DNA of 64,000 nucleotides from Methanobacteriota archaeon (lineage in GTDB: Archaea > Thermoplasmatota > E2 > DHVEG-1): positions 57,708-121,707 of the forward strand of contig CAIRCU010000009.1 of NCBI GenBank assembly GCA_903877165.1, in the 5' to 3' direction. The position numbers were made by a program, and so were the translations under genes. Numbering within the stretch: position 1 is the stretch's first letter; the number at the start of each line of letters is the position of its first letter. This document shows positions 44,932-63,296 of the stretch, in pieces. The notes beneath the pieces were generated by a model. It was not told where the DNA came from. It did not search any database and saw nothing but the letters and a program-made list of their open reading frames with translations.

Positions 44932-47334
44932 TTAACTCGGGGGATGGAAATCGACTTTCATTTTGTAGATGAAGGGGAGTTCGATGCAGAAGGAACTACC
45001 TTTGCCCACCTCGCTTTCCGCCCAGATTCTTCCGTTGTGTTTCTTCACAATTTCTTTTGAGATGAAGAGGCCAAGGCCGGTGCCTTCGTTGTTGCGGTCC
45101 TCGCCGGTGTAGGCTTGGTAGAATTTGATGAAGATTTTTTTGATTTCTTCTTTGGAGATACCGATGCCTGTGTCCACGACGGTGATGAGGATGTGTGTGT
45201 CTTGTTTTTTCGCATGGACGGAGATGGATCCGGTGTCCGTGAATTTCAGGGCGTTGCCGATGAGGTTCTTGAAGACCTGTGAAAGTCGGTTTTTATCGCC
45301 AAGGATGTGCGGGAGGTCGGGGGGTACGGTGAGGTTGAACCTGAGGTTTTTGGTCATGATCGCCGGGCGCATGTCCTCACCGACTTCGTTGAGCAGCTCG
45401 ACCATGTCGAGTTTTTCCATGTCGAAGCGCATGGTGTCGCTGTCGAGACGGGCAACGTCGAGGATGTCGTTGACGAGTTTGAGGAGGCGTTCCGCATTGC
45501 GCAGACTGATCTTCGCCCAATTCTTGATTTTGTCGTTGACCTCTGGGTCGTGGAGGATGAGGTCGAGGTAGCCTTTGATGGGGGTGACGGGTGAACGCAG
45601 TTCGTGTGCTGCGATGTTCATGAACTCGGTTTTGAGTCGTTCGTTTTTTTTCAGTTCTGCTTCGATTTCGCGGCGTTGTACGATGTCACGGACGGTGCAG
45701 ACGACGCCGATGAACTCGTTCTCTTTCATCAGCGGGGCCATGTTGACTTCGATGGGGATGATGGTCTCGTTGGCGGCGACGAGGTCGAGTTCGATGTTCT
45801 CGATTTTTTCGTTTTTCTTGCGGACATCGAGGAAAATCTGCTGGAGGAAGTAGATGGAGTCTTCGAGGAGGTAGCTGCGCAGCGGGGTGGCGAGGATTTG
45901 GGCTTTGCGTCGACCCAGGAGCTTTTCGAAGGCTGGGTTGACGTAGGAGAGCCTGCCGAGGGCGTCGGTAGTGAAGACGCCGTCCGCGGAGGTCTCCGCG
46001 AGGACGCGGTAGCGTTCCTCGGATTTCACGAGTTCGTCCCAGACCCTCTTGCGTTCGGTGACGTCTTCCATATTGCCGACAAGAGCGCGCGGTTGGTGAC
46101 GACTGTCAAAAAGGGTCATGCTGGTGTTGCTGACCCAGCGGTATTCCGTGTCCTTGCAGCGGAAGCGGAATTCGAAATGCCGGGGTTTCTCGTTTTCTTT
46201 GCAGTAGGTGGATAATGATTTGATTTTTTCGAGAGTCGAGGTGCGGTCGTCAGGGTGGATCCGGTCGATAATCTCCGTCCTGGTGAAGGCCATCAGGTCG
46301 TCAGGGTGGTAGCCGAGGTTCTTCTGGACTGAAGGGCTGACGTATTCGAAGGCGTGCGTCCTTAGGTTTATTTTGTAGATGGTGCTGAGGGAGTGTTCGA
46401 GAACGAACTGGAACCGTCCTTGGTTTTCGCGGAGGTCATGTATCGCGGTCTTGTAGGCTGTGATGTCAGTGCAGGTAATCATGAGGAAGGGCGTGGCGCC
46501 TGTGGTGTGGTCGAGGCGGTTGACGCCGAACAGGACATGGGTGGTTGCTTTCCTTTTTCTCCGGACGGTCGCTTCCCCGCACCAGGTCCCAGATGCAAGC
46601 ACGCTTTGGAGGATCTCGGTGAGTGATTGTTTTGTTTTCAGCACGGCGGTAATCGGCGTTGCCGTCAGGTCTGCATCGTCCTCGTAGCCGCAGAGGCGCA
46701 GGAACGCGGTGTTGGGGCGGAAGATGTTTCCGTCGAGATCCGTAAGAGCCATCGCGCTGGGCGAGGCTGCGAAGAGAGCGTCGTTCTGGGGCGTCCGCAG
46801 TTGGTTGGTGGGATGGGCTAGTTGCTTGGTATCGTCTTGGCAGAGGACGACGAATCCTTGAAACCCAGCATCGCCATTGATTCTCAGGACGGAAAGATTC
46901 AGGGTTTTGGATACGGCTTTGCTAGGTTGAATCGTGACACGGTAGCGAGCCGAGGATTCCTGTTGTGTTACGATGCTGTTCCCAATGGCTTTCTGCTGGG
47001 GTGCGAGGAGGTTTGCGAACGGCGCGAGGAACAAGTCGGTTCGATTGGTCTGCAGGAGTTTTTGGGCGGCGGCGTTCCATGAGACGATCCGGCCGTGGGC
47101 GTCAAGCAGCAACGTGGCGGTCGGGGAGTTGTCGAACAGGATCTGCAGGATCTGCTGCTCCTCTTTTCCATGGAACATCCCCAGGATTGGTGGGTTGTGG
47201 TCCGTGGTTTCGACAGGAGCCGGTTCTTCAGGGGCGCAGATTGGAGCCACGGTGACCTTTTCCTGCGAGCGGGCGAGCCTCCCTGCTCGCTCCTCTTCCT
47301 GGAGTTCTTGGACGATGGCTGGAACCTTTCTCAC
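44932..47334 (-). CDS. multi-PAS sensor histidine kinase
   Basis: Four PAS-like segments; HisKA NIAAHELRSPVTPIKGYLDLIL; HATPase NLIGNALKFTD, DTGIGISKEEI, GTGLGLFISKEIV. Confidence 0.93.
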   Translation of the reverse strand: MRKVPAIVQELQEEERAGRLARSQEKVTVAPICAPEEPAPVETTDHNPPILGMFHGKEEQQILQILFDNSPTATLLLDAHGRIVSWNAAAQKLLQTNRTDLFLAPFANLLAPQQKAIGNSIVTQQESSARYRVTIQPSKAVSKTLNLSVLRINGDAGFQGFVVLCQDDTKQLAHPTNQLRTPQNDALFAASPSAMALTDLDGNIFRPNTAFLRLCGYEDDADLTATPITAVLKTKQSLTEILQSVLASGTWCGEATVRRKRKATTHVLFGVNRLDHTTGATPFLMITCTDITAYKTAIHDLRENQGRFQFVLEHSLSTIYKINLRTHAFEYVSPSVQKNLGYHPDDLMAFTRTEIIDRIHPDDRTSTLEKIKSLSTYCKENEKPRHFEFRFRCKDTEYRWVSNTSMTLFDSRHQPRALVGNMEDVTERKRVWDELVKSEERYRVLAETSADGVFTTDALGRLSYVNPAFEKLLGRRKAQILATPLRSYLLEDSIYFLQQIFLDVRKKNEKIENIELDLVAANETIIPIEVNMAPLMKENEFIGVVCTVRDIVQRREIEAELKKNERLKTEFMNIAAHELRSPVTPIKGYLDLILHDPEVNDKIKNWAKISLRNAERLLKLVNDILDVARLDSDTMRFDMEKLDMVELLNEVGEDMRPAIMTKNLRFNLTVPPDLPHILGDKNRLSQVFKNLIGNALKFTDTGSISVHAKKQDTHILITVVDTGIGISKEEIKKIFIKFYQAYTGEDRNNEGTGLGLFISKEIVKKHNGRIWAESEVGKGSSFCIELPFIYKMKVDFHPPS

Positions 47335-47433
47335 TGGCTCTCACGCTCCGATGAAGACGTTTGGAATCCCATCCGACGTTTGAAGGGTGGTCCTGCGGCA
47401 TCCCGGGGGCAGGACATCGGGATGATATTTCAT

Positions 47434-47796
47434 TTACCCTTTTAATATCTTGTCAACCCGCTGCAGGAGCGTCTCCTTGTCAAAGGGCTTCATGATGTAG
47501 TCCGCGAGCCCCTCATCGAGCAGGACCTGCTTGCGTTTCTCAGAAATCTCAAGGACGCTCATGAAGGCGACCTTCACAGCCTGATTCTTCTTCTTGATCC
47601 GGTTGAATACATCCCAGCCGCTCATCCCGGGCATCATGATGTCAAGAAGAACGAGGTCAACGTGCTCCTTCTCCAGCTTCCGTAGCGCGTCTTCACCACT
47701 GTATGAGGGAACGACTGTGTACCCGCCGAGCTCCAGGACCGTCCGTGTCAAATCCACGATATCAGGTTCATTGTCAACAACCATGATCTTCTTCAT
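47434..47796 (-). CDS. stand-alone response-regulator receiver protein
   Basis: MKKIMVVDNEPDIVDLTRTVLELGGY, LVLLDIMMPGMSGWDV, YIMKPFDKETL; ATG at 47796 (listed ORF overextended). Confidence 0.92.
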   Translation of the reverse strand: MKKIMVVDNEPDIVDLTRTVLELGGYTVVPSYSGEDALRKLEKEHVDLVLLDIMMPGMSGWDVFNRIKKKNQAVKVAFMSVLEISEKRKQVLLDEGLADYIMKPFDKETLLQRVDKILKG

Positions 47797-47922
47797 GCAT
47801 CGCATCTCCTCATGTTTGTAAGGCCCCGTGAGGTATAAGAAATTATCGTTCTCGAGGGGAATTTGTAGAAAAGAAAAAGTATAAATGCGTGCATTCGATA
47901 TAATTTGTGCCGGGATGGGATC

Positions 47923-48375
47923 ATGGCACATACACCAATCCTTTTCTCACTAGCGATTGAGAAAGATGCGGAAACCAATGCGTTACTCCTACAAGTGCTG
48001 TTTCCTCATGGTGCGCCGAATGTCACGCTAACGAAGACCGCTGTCGCCTGGTATCCCACCGCTGAAGAACTCGATTTTCTCAACGAGGCGTACGCCATGA
48101 TTGCACCGACCCTGCCGGTTGTCCCGACGCCGAATGTCAAACCGGAGCATCATCTGACGGGTGAAAAGGACCCGTCGATTCGCGACTCGGCAACCGAAGA
48201 GGAGATTCATGCGGCCGCTACGAAGAAAACCATGGCGGAGCAGGAGCAGGTGTTCGTCCAAGTCGACGACAAACTCATTGACGAGGCGCTCAAACGCAGG
48301 AAGAGCGAAGGTCCAGTCAAGGTCGATGAGGACTCCATAGTCGAGCGAATCACGAAAAGAAAGAAATCAGCGTAG
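47923..48375 (+). CDS. unknown soluble protein
   Basis: Start MAHTPILFSLAIEKDAETNALLLQVLFPHGAPN; charged C-terminus. Confidence 0.55.
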   Translation: MAHTPILFSLAIEKDAETNALLLQVLFPHGAPNVTLTKTAVAWYPTAEELDFLNEAYAMIAPTLPVVPTPNVKPEHHLTGEKDPSIRDSATEEEIHAAATKKTMAEQEQVFVQVDDKLIDEALKRRKSEGPVKVDEDSIVERITKRKKSA

Positions 48376-51089: not shown

Positions 51090-53285
51090 ATGAAGAACGT
51101 TCTCAATAGCTCATCCCAGAGCGTTATAGTAGGCCTTTTAGTGTTCCTTTTGCTCAGTGCATGCGTCCCAGTGCATGCTGCTGCACAATCCTCGACACTG
51201 ACTATCACAAAGGAATATCATTTTACGATGCCAAGCCTAGGTCAGACGACCGTCTGCGGTCAAGTCTTCGACACCGTGCAGCTGTCGGATGGCACGGGCG
51301 CCCGCGCCCCCGGTGAACCTGACCTCCCGAGTTTGGGTGCCTCGCTGCTCCTGCCCCAAGCGACCAGTGTCGTCTCCGTTGATGTTTCTGCCGGCTCCCC
51401 GGTGACGCTTGGCACGGGGTTCCTGGTGCAGCCTGTGTCGACCCCCGTTAAGCTTTCCGAGCTTGACTCCGCGGTCCCAACCCTGACCCTTAATCAGGAT
51501 ATCTACAACGGAGCCGATGTCTTTCCCGCCTCAGTGTTCACGAACCAAGGCGTTCAGAGCTTCCGCGGCTACAACATCCTGGAGCTCGCGCTCAGCCCCG
51601 TCCAGTATCAACCCAGCACCGGAACCCTCCTCTTCTACCCCGATCTGACCGTCACGGTGCACCTCCAAGACGCCATAGCGGCGAACCCACTCTTCCGCGG
51701 GCGGCCCACCGATGAAGCCCAAGTGATCCAAAAGGTCGACAACCCGGAGACGGCGCTCACCTATCAGTACACTCCAGCCCAAACGGCCACAGCCGGGTCG
51801 TACTCCCTTCTGATTCTGACGACCGCGGCGCTGAAAGACCATTTCACCCCACTCATGGACGCCCACAATCAACAGGGCCTTACCACCGAGATAAAAACAC
51901 TCAACGACGTCTCACCCGTGACATCATCAATCACGCCGTCAACCATCCGAGATTATATTCGCAGTGAATATCTCAACAGCGGTATTGAGTACGTCCTTCT
52001 CGGAGGCGACGATGACGTCATCCCCGCACAGAAACTGTACGTCGAGGCTTGGGCAGGGGGAGACACTGATCAGATGCCTTCGGATCTCTTCTACGCCTGT
52101 CTTGATGGGACCTATAACTATAATGGCAATGACTATTACGGCGAAAAGACCGACGGGACGAATGGCGGCGATGTCGACCTGATTGCTGAGGTGGCTGTCG
52201 GCCGCGCGTGCGTCGGCAGCACCACCGAGGTCGATAATTTCGTCGCGAAGAGCGTCGCCTACCTGCAGGGCAACGGCATTCGCACCGGCCCGGTGCTGAA
52301 CGTCGGTGAGTTCCTCTGGGATCCGAACACCTATGGCGACGACTACATGGAGGAACTCGTCAATGGGTCGTCCCATCACGGGTATACGACGGTCGGCATC
52401 CCTGAAAGCCAGTACTCCACGATTCGGCTATACGATCAGCTCTGGGGGTACCCGCCCGGGTGGCCGGCAAGCGCGCTCATCAGCGAAGTGAACGCGGGTG
52501 TCACCATCATTAACCATCTGGGGCATTCAGGCTCTGATTACAACATGCGGATTTACACCGATGACGTCGATGCGTTGACGAACACCGTGACTCCGTTCGT
52601 GTATTCACAGGGGTGTTACGCCGGGGCGTTTGACCAAGGTGACTGCATTGCGGAACACTGGACCGTGAAGACGCCACATGCCGGGTTCGCCGTGATCATG
52701 TGCGCGCGTTACGGCTGGGGTGTCATCGGCAGCACCGATGGGGCGAACCAACGGTTCCATCGGTACTTCTGGGACGCCGTGTTCAGCAGGAACATCACCT
52801 CGCTGGGATGGGCGAACCAGGATTCCAAAGAAAAGAACGTGCATCGGATTAACGGCGGATGCATGCGCTGGGTGTACTACGAGATGAACCTGTTTGGGGA
52901 CCCAGCCTTGGAGTTTTTCCCCTCCGGGAACGCTGCCCCCTCGAAGCCGGCAGCGCCGGCCGGGACGTCTAAGGGGAGTACAAAGACGGATTATACGTTC
53001 ACCGCGTCGACGACCGATCCGGATGGCGATCTGCTCTACTACAAGTTCAGCTTCGGGGATGGCACGTACAGCGCGTGGCTCGGCCCGTATGCCTCTGGCG
53101 TTAATGTGACGATATCCCATAACTGGTCGAAACTCGGGTCGTATAACGTGCAAGTCAGGGCTATGGATACGCACCATTCGCAGAGCGACTGGTCCGACCC
53201 CCTGCCGGTGAAGATGCCGTATCGGCCATGGTGGGTGGATATCGTCCAGCGGATCCTCGCGTTCTTCCACCGCATCTTCGCATAA
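51090..53285 (+). CDS. exported gingipain-like (C25 family) cysteine peptidase with C-terminal PKD-like domain
   Basis: LLILTTAALKDHFTPLMDAHNQQGLTTEI; YVLLGGDDDVIPA; catalytic INHLGHSG (His) and YSQGCYAGAFD (Cys). Confidence 0.9.
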   Translation: MKNVLNSSSQSVIVGLLVFLLLSACVPVHAAAQSSTLTITKEYHFTMPSLGQTTVCGQVFDTVQLSDGTGARAPGEPDLPSLGASLLLPQATSVVSVDVSAGSPVTLGTGFLVQPVSTPVKLSELDSAVPTLTLNQDIYNGADVFPASVFTNQGVQSFRGYNILELALSPVQYQPSTGTLLFYPDLTVTVHLQDAIAANPLFRGRPTDEAQVIQKVDNPETALTYQYTPAQTATAGSYSLLILTTAALKDHFTPLMDAHNQQGLTTEIKTLNDVSPVTSSITPSTIRDYIRSEYLNSGIEYVLLGGDDDVIPAQKLYVEAWAGGDTDQMPSDLFYACLDGTYNYNGNDYYGEKTDGTNGGDVDLIAEVAVGRACVGSTTEVDNFVAKSVAYLQGNGIRTGPVLNVGEFLWDPNTYGDDYMEELVNGSSHHGYTTVGIPESQYSTIRLYDQLWGYPPGWPASALISEVNAGVTIINHLGHSGSDYNMRIYTDDVDALTNTVTPFVYSQGCYAGAFDQGDCIAEHWTVKTPHAGFAVIMCARYGWGVIGSTDGANQRFHRYFWDAVFSRNITSLGWANQDSKEKNVHRINGGCMRWVYYEMNLFGDPALEFFPSGNAAPSKPAAPAGTSKGSTKTDYTFTASTTDPDGDLLYYKFSFGDGTYSAWLGPYASGVNVTISHNWSKLGSYNVQVRAMDTHHSQSDWSDPLPVKMPYRPWWVDIVQRILAFFHRIFA

Positions 53286-53418: not shown

Positions 53419-53676
53419 TTAGGCGATCATCGGATCGAACGGATCGACTTGAGGCCGCGGCGGCTTGACAGCAGACCGTTCGAGGATCCGCTTGGCAACG
53501 GACACAAGGAAGTTCTTCTCCACCATCTCCACCTGACGGCGGCTGAGGTTCTCCTTCCGTAAGACAATCTCCCCCCGTTCGTTGTACACCTCGATAATGC
53601 CTCGTTCTATGTCAGAGATGACCTTATATGCTTTTTTCTTGGATTGCATCCAGACCCAAACGTGCTCATTCGACAT
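53419..53676 (-). CDS. small WxWxQ-family protein (paralogue of 57443-57670)
   Basis: MSNEHVWVWMQSKKKAYKVISDIERGIIEVYNERGEIVLRKENLSRRQVEMVEKNFL... Confidence 0.65.
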   Translation of the reverse strand: MSNEHVWVWMQSKKKAYKVISDIERGIIEVYNERGEIVLRKENLSRRQVEMVEKNFLVSVAKRILERSAVKPPRPQVDPFDPMIA

Positions 53677-53785
53677 AGACGGCTTCCGTTCTTCTCTGGA
53701 AAGGTTCTTTTCCCAGGATATAAACATTATGCTTCTTCTCAGGAGGAAGCCTCCTGTTTTGGTATTCTGCCAGCCTACATTTATA

Positions 53786-53807
53786 TATGATTCTAGAAAG
53801 AATCATA
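53786..53807. repeat. perfect inverted repeat TATGATTCT-AGAA-AGAATCATA overlapping the promoter of a surface protein gene
   Basis: 9-bp arms, 4-nt spacer, adjoining TATA box atttatatatg (53779-53789), 15 nt before ATG 53823. Confidence 0.85.
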
Positions 53808-53822
53808 CACGGTTAGGAAGAG

Positions 53823-55715
53823 ATGCTAGGAAACGATTCGAGTAAAGCACAGCGCTTTTGCAAACATGCCTTCATCTTCATCATCGTCTTGTGGATGACG
53901 CTAGCGGTTCTGCCGCTAGGCGTGCGTGCGGAGCAGACGATGTACGTCGACTGCACGAACACCGCGGGCCCCTGGGACGGAAGCCAAGCCTATCCCTACA
54001 AGACTATCGCTACCGCTGTCGCCCAATCTCAAGCGACGATCATCTACGTCTCCGCGGGGACCTACAGCGAAAACGTGGTCATCACTCATTCTCTGCAGCT
54101 CATCGGCGCCAGCAGCCTTTCGACGACCATCGACGGAGGCGGACACGGCCATACCGTCGCGGTCACGGGAGCCGAGGCTGCGGCCATCACGGTCAGCATC
54201 AGCGGGTTTACAATCCAGAACGCGGGTCAGCACGGGTTCGCCAACCTCGCCTGCTCCTATGCTACGGGCAGCACGATCCAAAGCAACACCCTCCAGAGCA
54301 GCCAAGAAGGCGACAACATCCAACTTGACCACTGCACCGGCCTCACCATCCACAGCAACATCATCACCAACGCCTACGTCTCCGGCATCAGCTTGACTCT
54401 GTGCTCTTCCTGCCTCCTGGATGCAAACACGATTCGCTACAGCCAGAAAGGACTCTCCTTTAGCTACTCCTCAAGCAACACCATCACCGGAAACACCGTC
54501 ACCCATAATACCGTGTACGGCGTGTACCTCTACCAGTCATCGCAGAACCAGTTCGCGCACAACGAGTTCACGGTCAACGGCCAGCATGCCACCGATCCCT
54601 GCACCAACGCCTGGTCCACAGGCCAGCAGGGGAACACCTGGGACGACTACCAAGGCTATGACAACGACAGCAACGGCATCGGCGACATCCCGTACTCCAT
54701 CCCCGGAGGAGCAAACCGAGACGACTACCCCCTCGGCGTCTTCAAGACAACGCAGCCGCCGGGCGAGACCAACAGCCCGCCAACCGTCGTCTCCATCATC
54801 GTTACCCCCGCAGAAGCATTTGTCGGCGACCTCGTCAGTTTCAGCGGAGAAGGCCAGGACAGCGACGGCATCATCCAGGGGTACTCCTGGCATTCCACCC
54901 GCGACGGCCAACTTAGTACCGCTAAAGCATTCACCTCCACCTCGCTTTCTGTCGGTGTACATACCATTTCACTGAGTGTTCAGGACAACGACGGCGCCTG
55001 GTCATCCACACGGACCACCACGCTGACGATCAAAGCAAGCCCTCAACCCGTCATCGACAGCATCACGCCAGCAACAGTCTACGCTGGACAGACCGTCACC
55101 TTCCATGGCCACGCAGAGAATGCCGACGACCTGGCGATCGAGTATCAATGGTCCTCTTCGAGTGACGGGGTCCTCAGCTCAGCCTCCGTCTTTTCTCGCT
55201 CGAATTTATCAATAGGAGTGCATGCGATATCCCTGCGAATCAAGGCTGCGGGGCGCGACTGGTCCTCACCCGTGACTCAGCTGTTAACCGTCGAGCAGCC
55301 TGACCCACAGGCCGAACCGCCAGTCGCGGATGCCGGGGGGCCGTATCAGGGATACATCGGTGAGCCGATCCTCGTGGACGCTTCGAAGAGTAGTTCCCCC
55401 AGCGGTGCTGACCTCACGTTCACTTGGGGTTTCGGCGATGGAACCAATGGCACGGGGAAATCCGCGGAGCACACTTATACCGCACCCGGTTCGTACAACC
55501 TCACTCTGACAGTTACTAATCCTCAAGGTTCGGCATCGTCAACCGCCTTGGTCGCCATTGCCGATGCGAGCAGTCAAACGGAAACGGGTCAGCACCCAGG
55601 TTCATCGGCAGGCTCGATACTATCAGCGTTGCCCGTGCCGGTGTTCCTTGTTATTGGGATGCTGGTGTTCTTCGGCGTAATCTGCGTCGTTCTACTTGGG
55701 TTGAGGCGACCGTAA
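53823..55715 (+). CDS. surface protein: beta-helix plus multiple PKD/Ig-like domains plus C-terminal TM
   Basis: YKTIATAVAQSQATIIYVSAGTYSENVVI; PKD VADAGGPYQGYIGEPILVDASKSSSPSGADLTFTWGFGDGTNGTG; TM PVFLVIGMLVFFGVICVVLLGLRRP. Confidence 0.9.
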   Translation: MLGNDSSKAQRFCKHAFIFIIVLWMTLAVLPLGVRAEQTMYVDCTNTAGPWDGSQAYPYKTIATAVAQSQATIIYVSAGTYSENVVITHSLQLIGASSLSTTIDGGGHGHTVAVTGAEAAAITVSISGFTIQNAGQHGFANLACSYATGSTIQSNTLQSSQEGDNIQLDHCTGLTIHSNIITNAYVSGISLTLCSSCLLDANTIRYSQKGLSFSYSSSNTITGNTVTHNTVYGVYLYQSSQNQFAHNEFTVNGQHATDPCTNAWSTGQQGNTWDDYQGYDNDSNGIGDIPYSIPGGANRDDYPLGVFKTTQPPGETNSPPTVVSIIVTPAEAFVGDLVSFSGEGQDSDGIIQGYSWHSTRDGQLSTAKAFTSTSLSVGVHTISLSVQDNDGAWSSTRTTTLTIKASPQPVIDSITPATVYAGQTVTFHGHAENADDLAIEYQWSSSSDGVLSSASVFSRSNLSIGVHAISLRIKAAGRDWSSPVTQLLTVEQPDPQAEPPVADAGGPYQGYIGEPILVDASKSSSPSGADLTFTWGFGDGTNGTGKSAEHTYTAPGSYNLTLTVTNPQGSASSTALVAIADASSQTETGQHPGSSAGSILSALPVPVFLVIGMLVFFGVICVVLLGLRRP

Positions 55716-55746
55716 GATTGGGCCGTGGGGAAACGTATAAGGGCAG

Positions 55747-56643
55747 GTGAGCGATATGGAATCGGCAGGAGAGATGATGCGGTTTACCCGTGGGATGCAG
55801 AGTACAGCAGTCGCTGGAGTTATTGAAGCTCTTCTTCTCGTCGCGTTGGTTGCGATTATCATCTCCATGATTCAGCTCGTGTACATCCCCCAGCTCATGG
55901 AACAAAAAGAAGCGGATCACATGGATATGGTATTCAACCAGTTCTCCCAGCTGAAGTCGATGGTGGATATGCAGGCGATATCGCGGTCGACCTCGCCGAT
56001 TTCCTCGATGCTGACGATGGGAAGCCCGAAGCTGCCGTACTTCCTGACAGTCCAGGCGTTAGGCAAGGTGTCGTTTTCAAACGAGAGCACGTCGTTCATT
56101 AGGATATTTCCTAATCCCGGGGGGTTTCCTTCGGGCGGGATGACGATTTCCTCCGTTCATTTTGAGTCTCAGAACGCGTATTTCGTGGATCAGGAGTATG
56201 TGCTGGAGGGCGGTGGGATTGTCGTCCAGCAGTCGAATGGCATTCCGGTGATGCGGGCGGATCCGTCCATTGCCGCGGTGAACCAGTCTTCGAAAATTGT
56301 GTTGCACTTTGATTTGCCCGTGTTTGTGGGGATGCAGGACAAGACCGATACGGAGGGCGAGGGGAAGTGCTTTATTCGCACGAACTATTCGTCGAATCAG
56401 ACGTATTTTGGGACTATTCCTTCTGGGGGGAATATCAAGATTTATTCCGATTATGATATTGCGTGGAACCAGTCGCTTCACAATATCTTAGGTGTGTATG
56501 ACCGGAATGGCTATCTCACTATTGAGAGGCATTCGGCTCAGCCGACGGGCTACGTGCAGATCTCGCCGGGGACGAAGACCATTGATTTGTACGTTAACGT
56601 CATTAAAGTCTTCGTTCAGATTGGTCCGGGCTGGGTTGAGTAG
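55747..56643 (+). CDS. pilin-like/membrane-anchored extracytoplasmic protein
   Basis: Short basic N-terminus, TM GVIEALLLVALVAIIISMIQLVYI, followed by EQKEADHMDMVFNQFSQLKSMVDM and a beta-rich C-terminal region. Confidence 0.6.
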   Translation: MSDMESAGEMMRFTRGMQSTAVAGVIEALLLVALVAIIISMIQLVYIPQLMEQKEADHMDMVFNQFSQLKSMVDMQAISRSTSPISSMLTMGSPKLPYFLTVQALGKVSFSNESTSFIRIFPNPGGFPSGGMTISSVHFESQNAYFVDQEYVLEGGGIVVQQSNGIPVMRADPSIAAVNQSSKIVLHFDLPVFVGMQDKTDTEGEGKCFIRTNYSSNQTYFGTIPSGGNIKIYSDYDIAWNQSLHNILGVYDRNGYLTIERHSAQPTGYVQISPGTKTIDLYVNVIKVFVQIGPGWVE

Positions 56644-56672
56644 CTGTCCGATGTTGCAGCTTAGAGTTATGT

Positions 56673-57452
56673 ATGAGCGAGGGAAAAGCGGAGAAAAAGG
56701 AGCAGGATGCGTTCCTGCGGACCCGCATTCCAGGGTTTGATGAGTTGTTCGCAGACGGCGGGATCCCTCGCCATAACGCGGTGCTCGTGGCTGGGGGGAC
56801 CGGGACTGGGAAGAGCACGTTTTGTCGGCAGGTCTGCTACAGTCTTGTGAGCGCCGGTAAGCACTGCATGTACGTCAGTTTCGAGGAGAGCATCGAGAAG
56901 GTCGTTCGGAGCATGAAGGCGTTCGGCTGGGACGCAAAGAAGTATGTGGATGACGGGTCGCTGCTGATTCAGAAAATCAATCCGCTGGATATCCTGCGGA
57001 TGAAGTTCGGTTCGGTGAGCGGCTCGGGGTCGGCGACCGAGCTGTCGTACAAGATCAAGCCGTTGATTATCCCGAAGGATTTCAACCCGGAGGTGATCGT
57101 GGTGGATTCCTTGACCGCGATTATCTCGGCGTCGATTAGTAAGGAGAAGAACTATCGGGTGTATCTGCAGCAGCTGTTCAATTTCTTCGAGGAGACTGGG
57201 GCGACGTCGTTTCTGATTACAGAGACGGAGCCGGTGCCGACGCGGTTCAGCGACACCGGGATCGAGGAGTTCCTGGCGGACGGGATCCTGGTGATGTACA
57301 ATATCCAGCGTGGGGATCGTCGGGAGAACGCGGTGGAGGTGCTGAAGATGCGGTATTCGCAGCATCAAAAGAAGGTGTTTTCGATGGAGATAGGGTCTGG
57401 CGGTATTCGGGTGTTCCCGGATCGCCAGGTAATCCTGCCGGTTTATAAGTAG
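56673..57452 (+). CDS. KaiC-like RecA-superfamily ATPase (single domain)
   Basis: RIPGFDELFADGGIPRHNAVLVAGGTGTGKSTFCRQ Walker A; VIVVDSLTAI Walker B. Confidence 0.92.
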   Translation: MSEGKAEKKEQDAFLRTRIPGFDELFADGGIPRHNAVLVAGGTGTGKSTFCRQVCYSLVSAGKHCMYVSFEESIEKVVRSMKAFGWDAKKYVDDGSLLIQKINPLDILRMKFGSVSGSGSATELSYKIKPLIIPKDFNPEVIVVDSLTAIISASISKEKNYRVYLQQLFNFFEETGATSFLITETEPVPTRFSDTGIEEFLADGILVMYNIQRGDRRENAVEVLKMRYSQHQKKVFSMEIGSGGIRVFPDRQVILPVYK

Positions 57453-57670
57453 GTATAGGGTTCTTTATGGTCGTCGAGGCGTTTGACGTTGAAGGTGGTG
57501 AGGAGGGCCTCGAGGGTTTTGACTTGTTGTTTGGAGAGTCCGATTCTGCGGATGAGGATGTTGTCGTATTCGTCGTAGATGGTGAGGGTGCCTGCCTCTT
57601 GGTTTGAGATGGCTTTGAGGATTCGGTAGTTCTGCACCCAGATCCAGATTTTGATGCCATTTTGTGCCAT
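57443..57670 (-). CDS. small WxWxQ-family protein
   Basis: MAQNGIKIWIWVQNYRILKAISNQEAGTLTIYDEYDNILIRRIGLSKQQVKTLEALLTTFNVKRLDDHKEPYTYL; convergent overlap with KaiC gene. Confidence 0.65.
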   Translation of the reverse strand: MAQNGIKIWIWVQNYRILKAISNQEAGTLTIYDEYDNILIRRIGLSKQQVKTLEALLTTFNVKRLDDHKEPYTYL

Positions 57671-57832
57671 GGGTATCCGTCTCACTCTTTAATATATACT
57701 TTGCTTTATAAATATATAAATATTTTCATATAAATTAATATAGGGTCCCCAGGCATGCCACACTATAGCACGACTACTGGATGGGCTTCAGGATAAAATA
57801 ATTATACAAGCACCCCCATACCACACCCGAGG

Positions 57833-58600
57833 ATGGACGCGATGACACTCGTACAATTAGACAAAAAAACCCAAGGTACAACAATCCAACGCCTCAAAAC
57901 CGGCGTCCCGGGAGTCGACAACCTCCTGTCCGGCGGCCTCCCCAAACACACCATCACTCTTGTATCCGGCCCCCCAGGGAGCGGCAAATCTATCTTCTGT
58001 TACCAATTCACCTACCAAGGCATCGCCGACGGCCAGAAATGTCTCTACATGACGCTAGATAAGAAAATCGAAGGCCTCCTTTCGCAGGCGAGCGAACTCG
58101 GCCTCAACTTCCAGCCCGCGATTGACGCAGGCCAAGCCAAGTTCCTCTTCCTCAACATCAACAAGAAACTCATCTACGAAACCATGGTCAACGAGATCCT
58201 CTCCGGCAACTACGACCGCATCGTCCTCGACTCCATCACCCCCCTCTCAGAGATGCCCATCTACCTCAACAACCCAGAGTTCTCCAACGACCTCTCCAAC
58301 GTCGACCCTGAGGAGCTCGTCAGCGGCAACTTCCCGGTCCGCCGCCTCCACCTCCACTACATCGTCAACGCCCTGGAGACCTCCGGGACCACCGCCGTCG
58401 TCACCTCGGAACTCCCTGCAGGATCCAACCACATGTCACGCGACGGGATCTCCGAATTCCTCGCGGACGGCGTCATCGTCCTTTCCCTCGACCCCACCAT
58501 GGACCGCCGCAAACTCGCAATCCTGAAGATGCGCAGCACCAAGCACACCCTCAAACCCCAGGACATGCAGATCGACAAAGGCGGCATCCGCCTCGTCTAA
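57833..58600 (+). CDS. KaiC-like RecA-superfamily ATPase (single domain)
   Basis: KTGVPGVDNLLSGGLPKHTITLVSGPPGSGKSIFCYQF; RIVLDSITPL. Confidence 0.92.
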   Translation: MDAMTLVQLDKKTQGTTIQRLKTGVPGVDNLLSGGLPKHTITLVSGPPGSGKSIFCYQFTYQGIADGQKCLYMTLDKKIEGLLSQASELGLNFQPAIDAGQAKFLFLNINKKLIYETMVNEILSGNYDRIVLDSITPLSEMPIYLNNPEFSNDLSNVDPEELVSGNFPVRRLHLHYIVNALETSGTTAVVTSELPAGSNHMSRDGISEFLADGVIVLSLDPTMDRRKLAILKMRSTKHTLKPQDMQIDKGGIRLV

Positions 58601-58616
58601 CACCTTTTCATCTTCT

Positions 58617-59084
58617 ATGCTCCACTACCGGCCACCCAAGGAACTGCGCGCCCTCTTCATCGTCCATTACGCCCCGCTCCTGCTTATCATCCTGGTCGGA
58701 CCGCTCACCGCCTTTTACGGCGTCTGGGAACTGCCCACCCCGAAGATTGTAACCGTCCTCGCCGGCGTCGCCGTCTTCTTTGCCGCCGCCTATGTCTATT
58801 TCAAATGGGAGATCTTCTGGTACCGCGAGTACCATGGGCAGCTTGTCACCGGCGGCATCTTCCAGAAGATCCGGCATCCACATTACACCTCGATTCTGAT
58901 CGTTGGCTATGGACTCGCCCTCTTCTTCTACTCTCTCTTCTCTTTAGTAATCGCGACTATCGCGATCCCCATCATGATCTGGAGCATTTTCGATGAGGAG
59001 AAACTCCTCGTCCGGCAATACGGGGAGGACTACCAGCAGTACATGAAACAGGTCCCCTGGCGAATCATCCCCCACCTGTTCTGA
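58617..59084 (+). CDS. isoprenylcysteine carboxyl methyltransferase-like membrane methyltransferase
   Basis: GIFQKIRHPHYTSILIVGYGLALFFYS...EEKLLVRQYGEDYQQYMKQVPWRIIPHLF. Confidence 0.85.
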   Translation: MLHYRPPKELRALFIVHYAPLLLIILVGPLTAFYGVWELPTPKIVTVLAGVAVFFAAAYVYFKWEIFWYREYHGQLVTGGIFQKIRHPHYTSILIVGYGLALFFYSLFSLVIATIAIPIMIWSIFDEEKLLVRQYGEDYQQYMKQVPWRIIPHLF

Positions 59085-61551: not shown

Positions 61552-62799
61552 CAACGCTATTTACTCTATCGGGGGGAGACGGCCATTTTTGAAATTCTGA
61601 ACTGGTACGGCATACTCACCCTTACCCATCTGTTCGCTCAAGTCAGCTTCGGCCACCGCGATTACCTCGACTCGATCAAAAAAGAAGACTGCGAAGAATC
61701 CACCGCGGTCCGTAACCAACGCGCAGCGCCGTACTTCACCCAAAGCGTCGCCATCGTCATCCCCACCTACAACGAGGGACCACAGGAACTCGAGGACTGC
61801 GTCCGCTCCGCACTGCGCCAGGACTACCGCCATAACTTCTACGTCATCGTCATCGACGACGGCAGCAAAGACAAGCGAGGCATCAACCACGTCCGGCGTT
61901 GTTTCGAGGGTACCCCGAACCTCTTCATCCATGAGTATCCCGTCAACAAAGGGAAGCGACATGCGCAGAAATACGGGTTCGACTTCTTCGGCGACAGCGT
62001 CGACATCATGGTGACGATCGACAGCGACACGATTCTCGAGCCGGATGCCGTCACCTATCTCGTCGCGCGTCTCGCGGACCCCAAGGTCGGTGCGGTCACC
62101 GGTGACGTCAGAGCCATCCGGCAGAACTTCTTGACCACCCTCATCGACGCCCGATACTGGACCGCGTTCAACCAAGAACGAGCAGCACAAAGCCTCTTCG
62201 GCACGGTCCTCTGCTGCTCCGGGCCGCTCGCCGCGTACCGCAACACCCTCGTCCAGCGCGTCAAAGAGGAGTACATCACCGAGAAGTTCCTGGGTGACTA
62301 CTGTACCTACGGCGACGACCGGCACCTCACGAACCTCGTCCTGGAGCAAGGCTACACCGTCCACTACGAACGCAAAGCAAAAGCCCGGACCTACGTCCCC
62401 CAGCACCTCAAACCCTGGCTGAAACAGCAGTCCCGCTGGAACCGAAGCTTCTACCGAGAATTCCTCTGGACCATCCGAAGAGTCATCATCCCGGGCAAAT
62501 GCCAGAACGTCTACATGATCTACGACCTGCTCATGCAATGCATCCTGCCCTTCCTCCTCATCGGATCCCTGACCTTCGTCTTCCTGAGGTCCACCACCGA
62601 CAGCTGGATTTACCTCATCGGCTACCTTGCGATCGTCGTCGCGATCTCGCTGCTGCGCGGCATCTACGCATACCTGCGGACACGGGAGAAGATGTTCTTC
62701 GTCTTCCCCTTGTACGCCTTCTGCCACATCTTCCTGTTACTCCCAGTACGGGTGTATGCACTATGTACACTAAAAACCACAAAATGGGGCACACGCTAG
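61552..62799 (+). CDS. processive family-2 glycosyltransferase (hyaluronan synthase-like), 5' end apparently frame-broken
   Basis: In-frame translation upstream of the listed ATG (62008) gives WYGILTLTHLFAQ..VAIVIPTYNEGPQELEDCVRSALRQDY..VIVIDDGSKDKRG; then TIDSDT, GDDRHLTN, QQSRWNRS. No ATG/GTG/TTG in frame between the stop at 61549 and 62008. Confidence 0.88.
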   Translation, partial: QRYLLYRGETAIFEILNWYGILTLTHLFAQVSFGHRDYLDSIKKEDCEESTAVRNQRAAPYFTQSVAIVIPTYNEGPQELEDCVRSALRQDYRHNFYVIVIDDGSKDKRGINHVRRCFEGTPNLFIHEYPVNKGKRHAQKYGFDFFGDSVDIMVTIDSDTILEPDAVTYLVARLADPKVGAVTGDVRAIRQNFLTTLIDARYWTAFNQERAAQSLFGTVLCCSGPLAAYRNTLVQRVKEEYITEKFLGDYCTYGDDRHLTNLVLEQGYTVHYERKAKARTYVPQHLKPWLKQQSRWNRSFYREFLWTIRRVIIPGKCQNVYMIYDLLMQCILPFLLIGSLTFVFLRSTTDSWIYLIGYLAIVVAISLLRGIYAYLRTREKMFFVFPLYAFCHIFLLLPVRVYALCTLKTTKWGTR

Positions 62800-63296
62800 A
62801 CATTGGCATTCGGGCAGGACTCATCCTCGCCTGCATCGCCTACCTGATCCTCGGCTATCCAGCCTACCAGCCGCTGCCGCAAGTCACAGCACAAGCGGAT
62901 GCCTGGCTGCTCAACGCGGTCGGTATCCACGCGGTCAGCTACGGGCGGTTCCTCGTCGCCTCGTTCCCCGCAGCGGACTGCATCTACGAGCTGTCGTACG
63001 AATGCTGCGGACTCATCCTGTTCTCCATCTACTTCATCGTCGTCTTCCTCGTCCCCAACTTCTCGTACAAGCACCGTTTCATCGCCGTCCTCTTCCTCCC
63101 TCTCATCTTCCTCGGCAATATCGTCAGGATTGGCCTAGGTGTCATGGTCGGCTATCATATCTCCATCGACGCGTCCATATTTTTCCACGACACCTTTGGC
63201 CAAATCCTGATCTTCATCTGGATTATCGTCTGTTTCCTTGCCTGGTTGAAGATCACCAAGAATTTCCCATCGGAAAAAAAGGAGGTCATGAAATAA
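62763..63296 (+). CDS. exosortase/archaeosortase-family transpeptidase-like membrane protein
   Basis: 177 aa; polytopic; Cys in YELSYECCGLILFSIYFIV, Arg in LGNIVRIGLGV, His in IFFHDTFGQ: the Cys/Arg/His layout of the exo/archaeosortase family. Correct start in-frame ATG 62763. Confidence 0.85.
   Translation: MYTKNHKMGHTLDIGIRAGLILACIAYLILGYPAYQPLPQVTAQADAWLLNAVGIHAVSYGRFLVASFPAADCIYELSYECCGLILFSIYFIVVFLVPNFSYKHRFIAVLFLPLIFLGNIVRIGLGVMVGYHISIDASIFFHDTFGQILIFIWIIVCFLAWLKITKNFPSEKKEVMK

Follow-up and report, generated by a model that had tools for sequence, protein, structure and literature searches.

Background

Archaeal KaiC-like ATPases were reportedly linked to type IV pili by Makarova et al. 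in 2017. The archaeal KaiC genes associate with type IV pili, the second component being mostly not known, and their products have been proposed as central signalling hubs; pairs of a KaiC with a DEATH-like or KaiB-like partner have been predicted in other archaea (PMC4858521). ArlH, a further relative, binds but does not hydrolyse ATP (PMC8978795).

The locus described here lies in a window of 64,000 nucleotides (the whole stretch of DNA that was analysed) from a 2 Mb archaeal assembly, and encodes two KaiC ATPases, KaiCa and KaiCb, together with a small protein, P2. The pilus-linked archaeal KaiCs are likewise single-domain, adjoin pilin-like or pilus genes and are predicted to regulate surface structures, whereas here a novel small protein is fixed beside the ATPase, the second KaiC has a replaced glutamate pair, and the main locus is without PilB and PilC. 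The likeness to cyanobacterial KaiABC lies in a (here putative) KaiC ring whose small partner is encoded separately in an adjoining gene, but both KaiCs at this locus are single-domain (no double-domain KaiC was found there), KaiB was found in 0/52 genomes of the order by a search whose control matched in Synechococcus, there is no sign of rhythm, and P2 resembles KaiB neither in sequence nor in predicted topology. ArlH shares the KaiC fold, is the partner of a pilus-like machine, and binds ATP without hydrolysis, as KaiCb may do. Assignment of KaiCa and KaiCb as ArlH was nevertheless rejected, as both fall far under the cut-off (71.8 and 52.4 bits on the NCBIfam ArlH equivalog, cut-off 215), and a separate ArlH-like gene is present in the archaellum operon of the genome, on contig C5. 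The pairs with DEATH-like or KaiB-like partners resemble the present case in that the second component is predicted from gene linkage; however, those partners are alpha-helical or thioredoxin-like, while for P2 the prediction is a beta-meander carrying a single helix, and its gene lies on the opposite strand.

Organization of the locus

The features of the locus are listed in Table 1. The two alignable small open reading frames (P1 and P2) singled out in the earlier note are present and homologous, being paralogues with 32% identity over 59 residues (BLASTP E 7e-11), and its description of the neighbours was confirmed: they are two KaiC ATPases of one domain each, a beta-helix/PKD protein, and a protein whose only helix of this kind is N-terminal. 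The two small genes do not bracket the module, since P2 has a KaiC gene on either side and runs opposite to both, and a third WxW paralogue lies elsewhere in the genome (C22:26356-26562 (-)). The module layout is DUF7289 (+), KaiCa (+), P2 (-), KaiCb (+), PEMT (+). The 3' end of KaiCa overlaps P2 by 10 bp in the window, and tail-to-tail 3' overlaps are found in several genomes. Further out, the window contains a C25 peptidase gene (51090-53285) and, after the PEMT/ICMT-like gene, CorA.

Table 1 Features of the KaiC-P2 locus, with positions in the window
Feature	Position	Strand	Remarks
P1, WxWxQ small protein, 85 aa	53419-53676	(-)	C-terminus FDPM[VI]x; divergent from NosD/PKD gene
Surface protein	53823-55715	(+)	NosD beta-helix, three PKD domains
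DUF7289 pilin-like protein	55747-56643	(+)	PF23960 E 3.7e-4, below cut-off; single N-terminal helix
KaiCa, single-domain KaiC ATPase, 259 aa	56673-57452	(+)	PF06745 E 2.2e-53, 181.5 bits
P2, WxWxQ small protein, 75 aa	57443-57670	(-)	KaiC-linked subtype; conserved C-terminus EP[FY]xxL
P2 core-promoter element AAAT[AG]TTTATATA	57713-57725	(-)	BRE/TATA-like, 55 nt upstream of P2 ATG
TATA-like element upstream of KaiCb	57795-57805	(+)	Similar stretches by eye in several relatives
KaiCb, single-domain KaiC ATPase, 255 aa	57833-58600	(+)	PF06745 E 6.3e-43, 147.2 bits
PEMT/ICMT-like membrane methyltransferase	58617-59084	(+)	PF04191 E 3.1e-9; last conserved module gene, adjoins KaiCb

The WxW family

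For P1 and P2 alike, dN lay far below dS in all pairs of close relatives tested, which identifies both as protein genes under purifying selection. Comparison of the WxW family with Pfam, NCBIfam, PHROGs and the PDB gave no credible match, so the family is, as had been suspected, undescribed in those libraries; a PDB sequence search with P2 also gave no match, and no characterised unrelated family was matched either by sequence searches with P1 and P2 or by a fold search of P2 against the PDB. Weak Pfam matches of P2 to DUF5932, LSM, KORA and HTH_19 were dropped since they were inconsistent from member to member, and an LSM (PF01423) identity for the family was not credible (4/39 members only, best E 0.0091). 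The AF2 model of P2 (pLDDT 86) has strands at residues 6-13, 16-23, 28-32 and 38-42 and a helix at 47-59, and P2 is thus predicted to form a small beta-rich domain, a beta-meander plus one helix, in agreement with the beta-rich character first proposed. The invariant residues in the aligned P2 set are W9, W11, K19, G27, L45 and P71. The model matched neither PDB folds nor a viral fold library at E <= 0.001, and no sequence or fold match was found for P2 as a KaiB/thioredoxin-like partner.

The family profile detected at least one copy in 48/52 genomes of the widespread, uncultured order Thermoprofundales/MBG-D and in 0/28 genomes of other families of the class, and among 390 genomes of the phylum (~340 outside the order) it gave only two marginal, short and unconvincing matches outside the order. 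As far as searched, the family therefore appears restricted to this one archaeal order. Named relatives with the module include SM1-50, SG8-52-3, M9B1D and 3300003432D, which are Thermoprofundales (MBG-D) genomes, and MBG-D are among the commonest sediment archaea (PMC6461988). A viral WxW match (L020, 46 residues on a phage-like contig) was judged to be due to chance, and a second, alignment-based viral scan found nothing.

Linkage of P2 to KaiCa

A set of 44 KaiCa orthologues (score >400 bits) was used to follow the linkage. A WxW gene occurs within 1 kb of KaiCa in 43/44 of these, a figure that measures retention and is not a P-value, since genomes from a single order do not count as independent; the WxW gene is on the opposite strand in all 43 and at most 100 bp away in 40 of the 43. 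KaiCb follows just beyond P2 in 38 of the 44 loci, with a divergent P2-KaiCb spacing of mostly 57-346 bp. The one exception is G003 (L161, 1038-4353), in which KaiCa is found amid receiver and kinase genes with no WxW gene. In a second family of the order (f2; L082-L084) KaiCa and P2 are kept together and KaiCb is absent between them, which suggests that KaiCa is the primary partner of P2 and probably its older neighbour. The remaining families of the class yielded neither P2 nor an orthologue of KaiCa. The f2 locus L166 (6903-7705 (-)) has a short receiver-like ORF and a 151-aa ORF between KaiCa and the WxW gene.

The core of the module stays constant while the flanking genes, whose enzyme names were read from the sequences, vary. 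On the left side, some genera have NosD/PKD and others a leuCD-like pair with a carbonic-anhydrase-like gene; the right side is occupied by CorA, by the ribosomal operon L3-L4-L23-L2 or by different genes.

Three subtypes of WxW proteins were distinguished. The P2 type, the most widespread, ends in EPFxxL and adjoins KaiCa. In the P1 type a variable-length linker leads to the C-terminus FDPM[VI]x, and the type forms a single clade (support 98/92, in a tree built on few columns); its gene is divergent from the NosD/PKD gene in 8/11 loci, the neighbours in the remaining loci being genes for receivers, histidine kinases or small 113-aa proteins, and in L052 and L063 a P1-type gene occurs with no KaiC nearby. 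The stand-alone type has a CBS-domain gene on one side and, on the other, a USP gene transcribed divergently from it, and adjoins DnaK-GrpE-thermosome. The P1 and stand-alone types are found only in a subset of genera with two or three WxW copies. KaiC linkage is thus true for one of the three subtypes: both the suggested pairing of the small proteins with KaiC genes and the co-occurrence of the two across genomes held for the P2 type and failed for the P1 and stand-alone types. The notion of WxW as a general KaiC partner family was rejected, as these two types do not stay near KaiC genes, and binding to KaiC need not be a property of the WxW domain as such.

Some further observations concern the surroundings of these genes. 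Upstream of the stand-alone gene, and in the same orientation, there is a conserved micro-ORF of ~40 aa (MMIVGQISSPEEAxEIExIAKSFVVG...), seen in L015 (upstream of 8577 (-)), L053, L056, L062 and L066. A large histidine kinase, accompanied by a receiver protein, is encoded in the window at 44932-47931 (-), with homologues near P1 in L054 and L060, where receiver genes also adjoin P1.

KaiC ATPases

KaiCa and KaiCb both score above the PF06745 cut-off of 26.6 bits. In KaiCa the Walker A, SFEE and Walker B motifs are intact, and all 27 orthologues compared have the second glutamate of the SFEE pair, the first being mostly kept. KaiCb keeps Walker A and B and has LTLDKK at the position of the glutamate pair; L-D-K replaces the pair in 23/23 aligned KaiCb orthologues, the position being taken from the alignment to KaiC. 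From this replacement we infer that KaiCb binds ATP with low or no hydrolysis. The genome has a second KaiCb-like paralogue (L017, 7871-8638 (+)), also missing the glutamate pair (LTSDD) and with no adjoining WxW gene. An archaellum operon in L018 (5477-8753) contains two consecutive ArlI genes, the first apparently split by a frameshift.

Surface proteins and a possible link to pili

The DUF7289-like protein falls below the cut-offs of both PF23960 (20.5 bits vs 27) and Pilin_N (12.3 vs 25.2). Its AF2 model (pLDDT 86) consists of a 64-residue helix (16-79) followed by a beta-rich head, and the protein is predicted to be pilin-like in shape; a fold search of the model against the PDB gave no useful match. 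The NosD/PKD protein, as read from its sequence, has a hydrophobic N-terminus and a C-terminal hydrophobic segment.

The link to a pilin-like surface structure made in the earlier note is supported by a second locus (L168, 531-8552), in which a DUF7289 relative, scoring 41.8 bits on PF23960, and a KaiC relative are found with PilB (T2SSE), PilC (T2SSF) and a Pilin_N protein, so that the pilin-like protein there belongs with type IV pilus genes. By coordinates, a KaiC relative directly adjoins the second DUF7289 gene in nine genomes. In other families of the class the DUF7289 relative is longer and has no adjoining KaiC, and in two of the loci read its neighbour is a NosD/PKD-like gene; for this reason the surface protein and DUF7289 look like the older unit, to which KaiC would have been added later. 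The pilus-type genes of L168 include a DUF11/VWA pilin, and similar-looking genes are present in L164 (5741-11034). In the window, an ORF of the archaeosortase/exosortase family (62499-63296 (+); TIGR04178, E 2.3e-9) follows a glycosyltransferase-like ORF.

Proposed role of P2

We favour, at a probability of roughly 0.5, the reading that KaiCa has in P2 a KaiB-like partner particular to this lineage, the module as a whole controlling a pilin-like surface apparatus. P2 would be a small, soluble, dedicated KaiCa partner, a second component like KaiB in role and unrelated to it in sequence; KaiCa would form the hydrolysing KaiC ring, and KaiCb, found in one family of the order, would be an ATP-binding companion that has no catalytic glutamate pair. 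Acting together, the three may control in which state the DUF7289 protein and the surface protein encoded further upstream are held, or whether these are assembled, with regulation presumably running from the KaiC side to the surface proteins. The parts of this reading differ in strength. P2 probably belongs functionally with the KaiCa module. For direct binding of P2 to KaiCa the chances are about even, linkage not being the same as binding, and that the output of the module is a pilin-like surface apparatus is possible but somewhat doubtful. Against KaiCa as partner stand the transcription of P2 opposite to both KaiC genes and the KaiCa of G003 with no P2; against pilus control stands the lack of a pilus ATPase in the module itself. 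A more far-reaching form, in which WxW is a lineage-born replacement of KaiB, must be called tentative and on the unlikely side. P2 would then dock on the KaiCa ring, to which the non-hydrolysing KaiCb might be added by mixing or stacking, read the nucleotide or phosphorylation state of the ring and time the assembly of the pilus-like surface apparatus, and the P1 and stand-alone copies would take the docking domain to other switches.

The element AAAT[AG]TTTATATA, which from general knowledge of archaeal promoters we take to be a BRE/TATA core promoter, precedes P2 in 26/27 module loci at 55-85 nt from the ATG (mostly 58-67). No further copy was found in the 27 loci (896,552 strand-bases), in which TTTATATA alone occurs 111 times. 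P2 looks like an independent transcription unit, and with a conserved promoter of its own its dose could be set apart from the KaiC genes. The pattern of the TATA-like element upstream of KaiCb is itself matched in a minority of relatives. The unusual conservation of the P2 promoter would also suit a transcription regulator that acts on the shared P2/KaiCb region and controls itself and KaiCb-PEMT, with P1 acting likewise on the NosD/PKD gene, and divergent placement, which is common for autoregulators, is seen for all three subtypes (P2 from KaiCb, P1 from NosD/PKD in 8/11 loci, the stand-alone type from USP). However, no helix-turn-helix or other DNA-binding fold was recognised in P2, the model of which has no PDB match, and P2 stays with KaiCa in f2, which is without KaiCb; a regulator is therefore considered unlikely.

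All five genes of the row are conserved together, so that linkage by itself does not single out the partner of P2, which might serve the pilin-like protein, the methyltransferase or an unrelated task in a gene order that is merely conserved by lineage. The P1 and stand-alone types, which work away from KaiC, agree with this, but f2 keeps KaiCa and P2 together amid changed contents, and in f1 the flanks vary on both sides with P2 unmoved, making such an explanation quite improbable. Least probable is a cis device resembling a noncontiguous operon or excludon (bacterial examples are described in PMC7154746), in which an antisense P2 within a co-directed row and the KaiC genes would silence each other by their transcripts: P2 is always opposite KaiCa, tail to tail, with 3' ends overlapping in several genomes including the window, yet in several genomes a separate TATA-like element seems to serve KaiCb, and the strong purifying selection on P2 indicates that the protein matters and not the transcript alone.

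Significance

Most archaeal KaiC-like ATPases of pilus loci are without a known second component, and it is this that gives the finding of P2 its value. P2 is a concrete candidate for the second component of an archaeal KaiC, conserved across the order in a fixed gene layout, and it accompanies a pair of KaiCs of which one largely keeps the catalytic glutamates and the other appears to have lost them.
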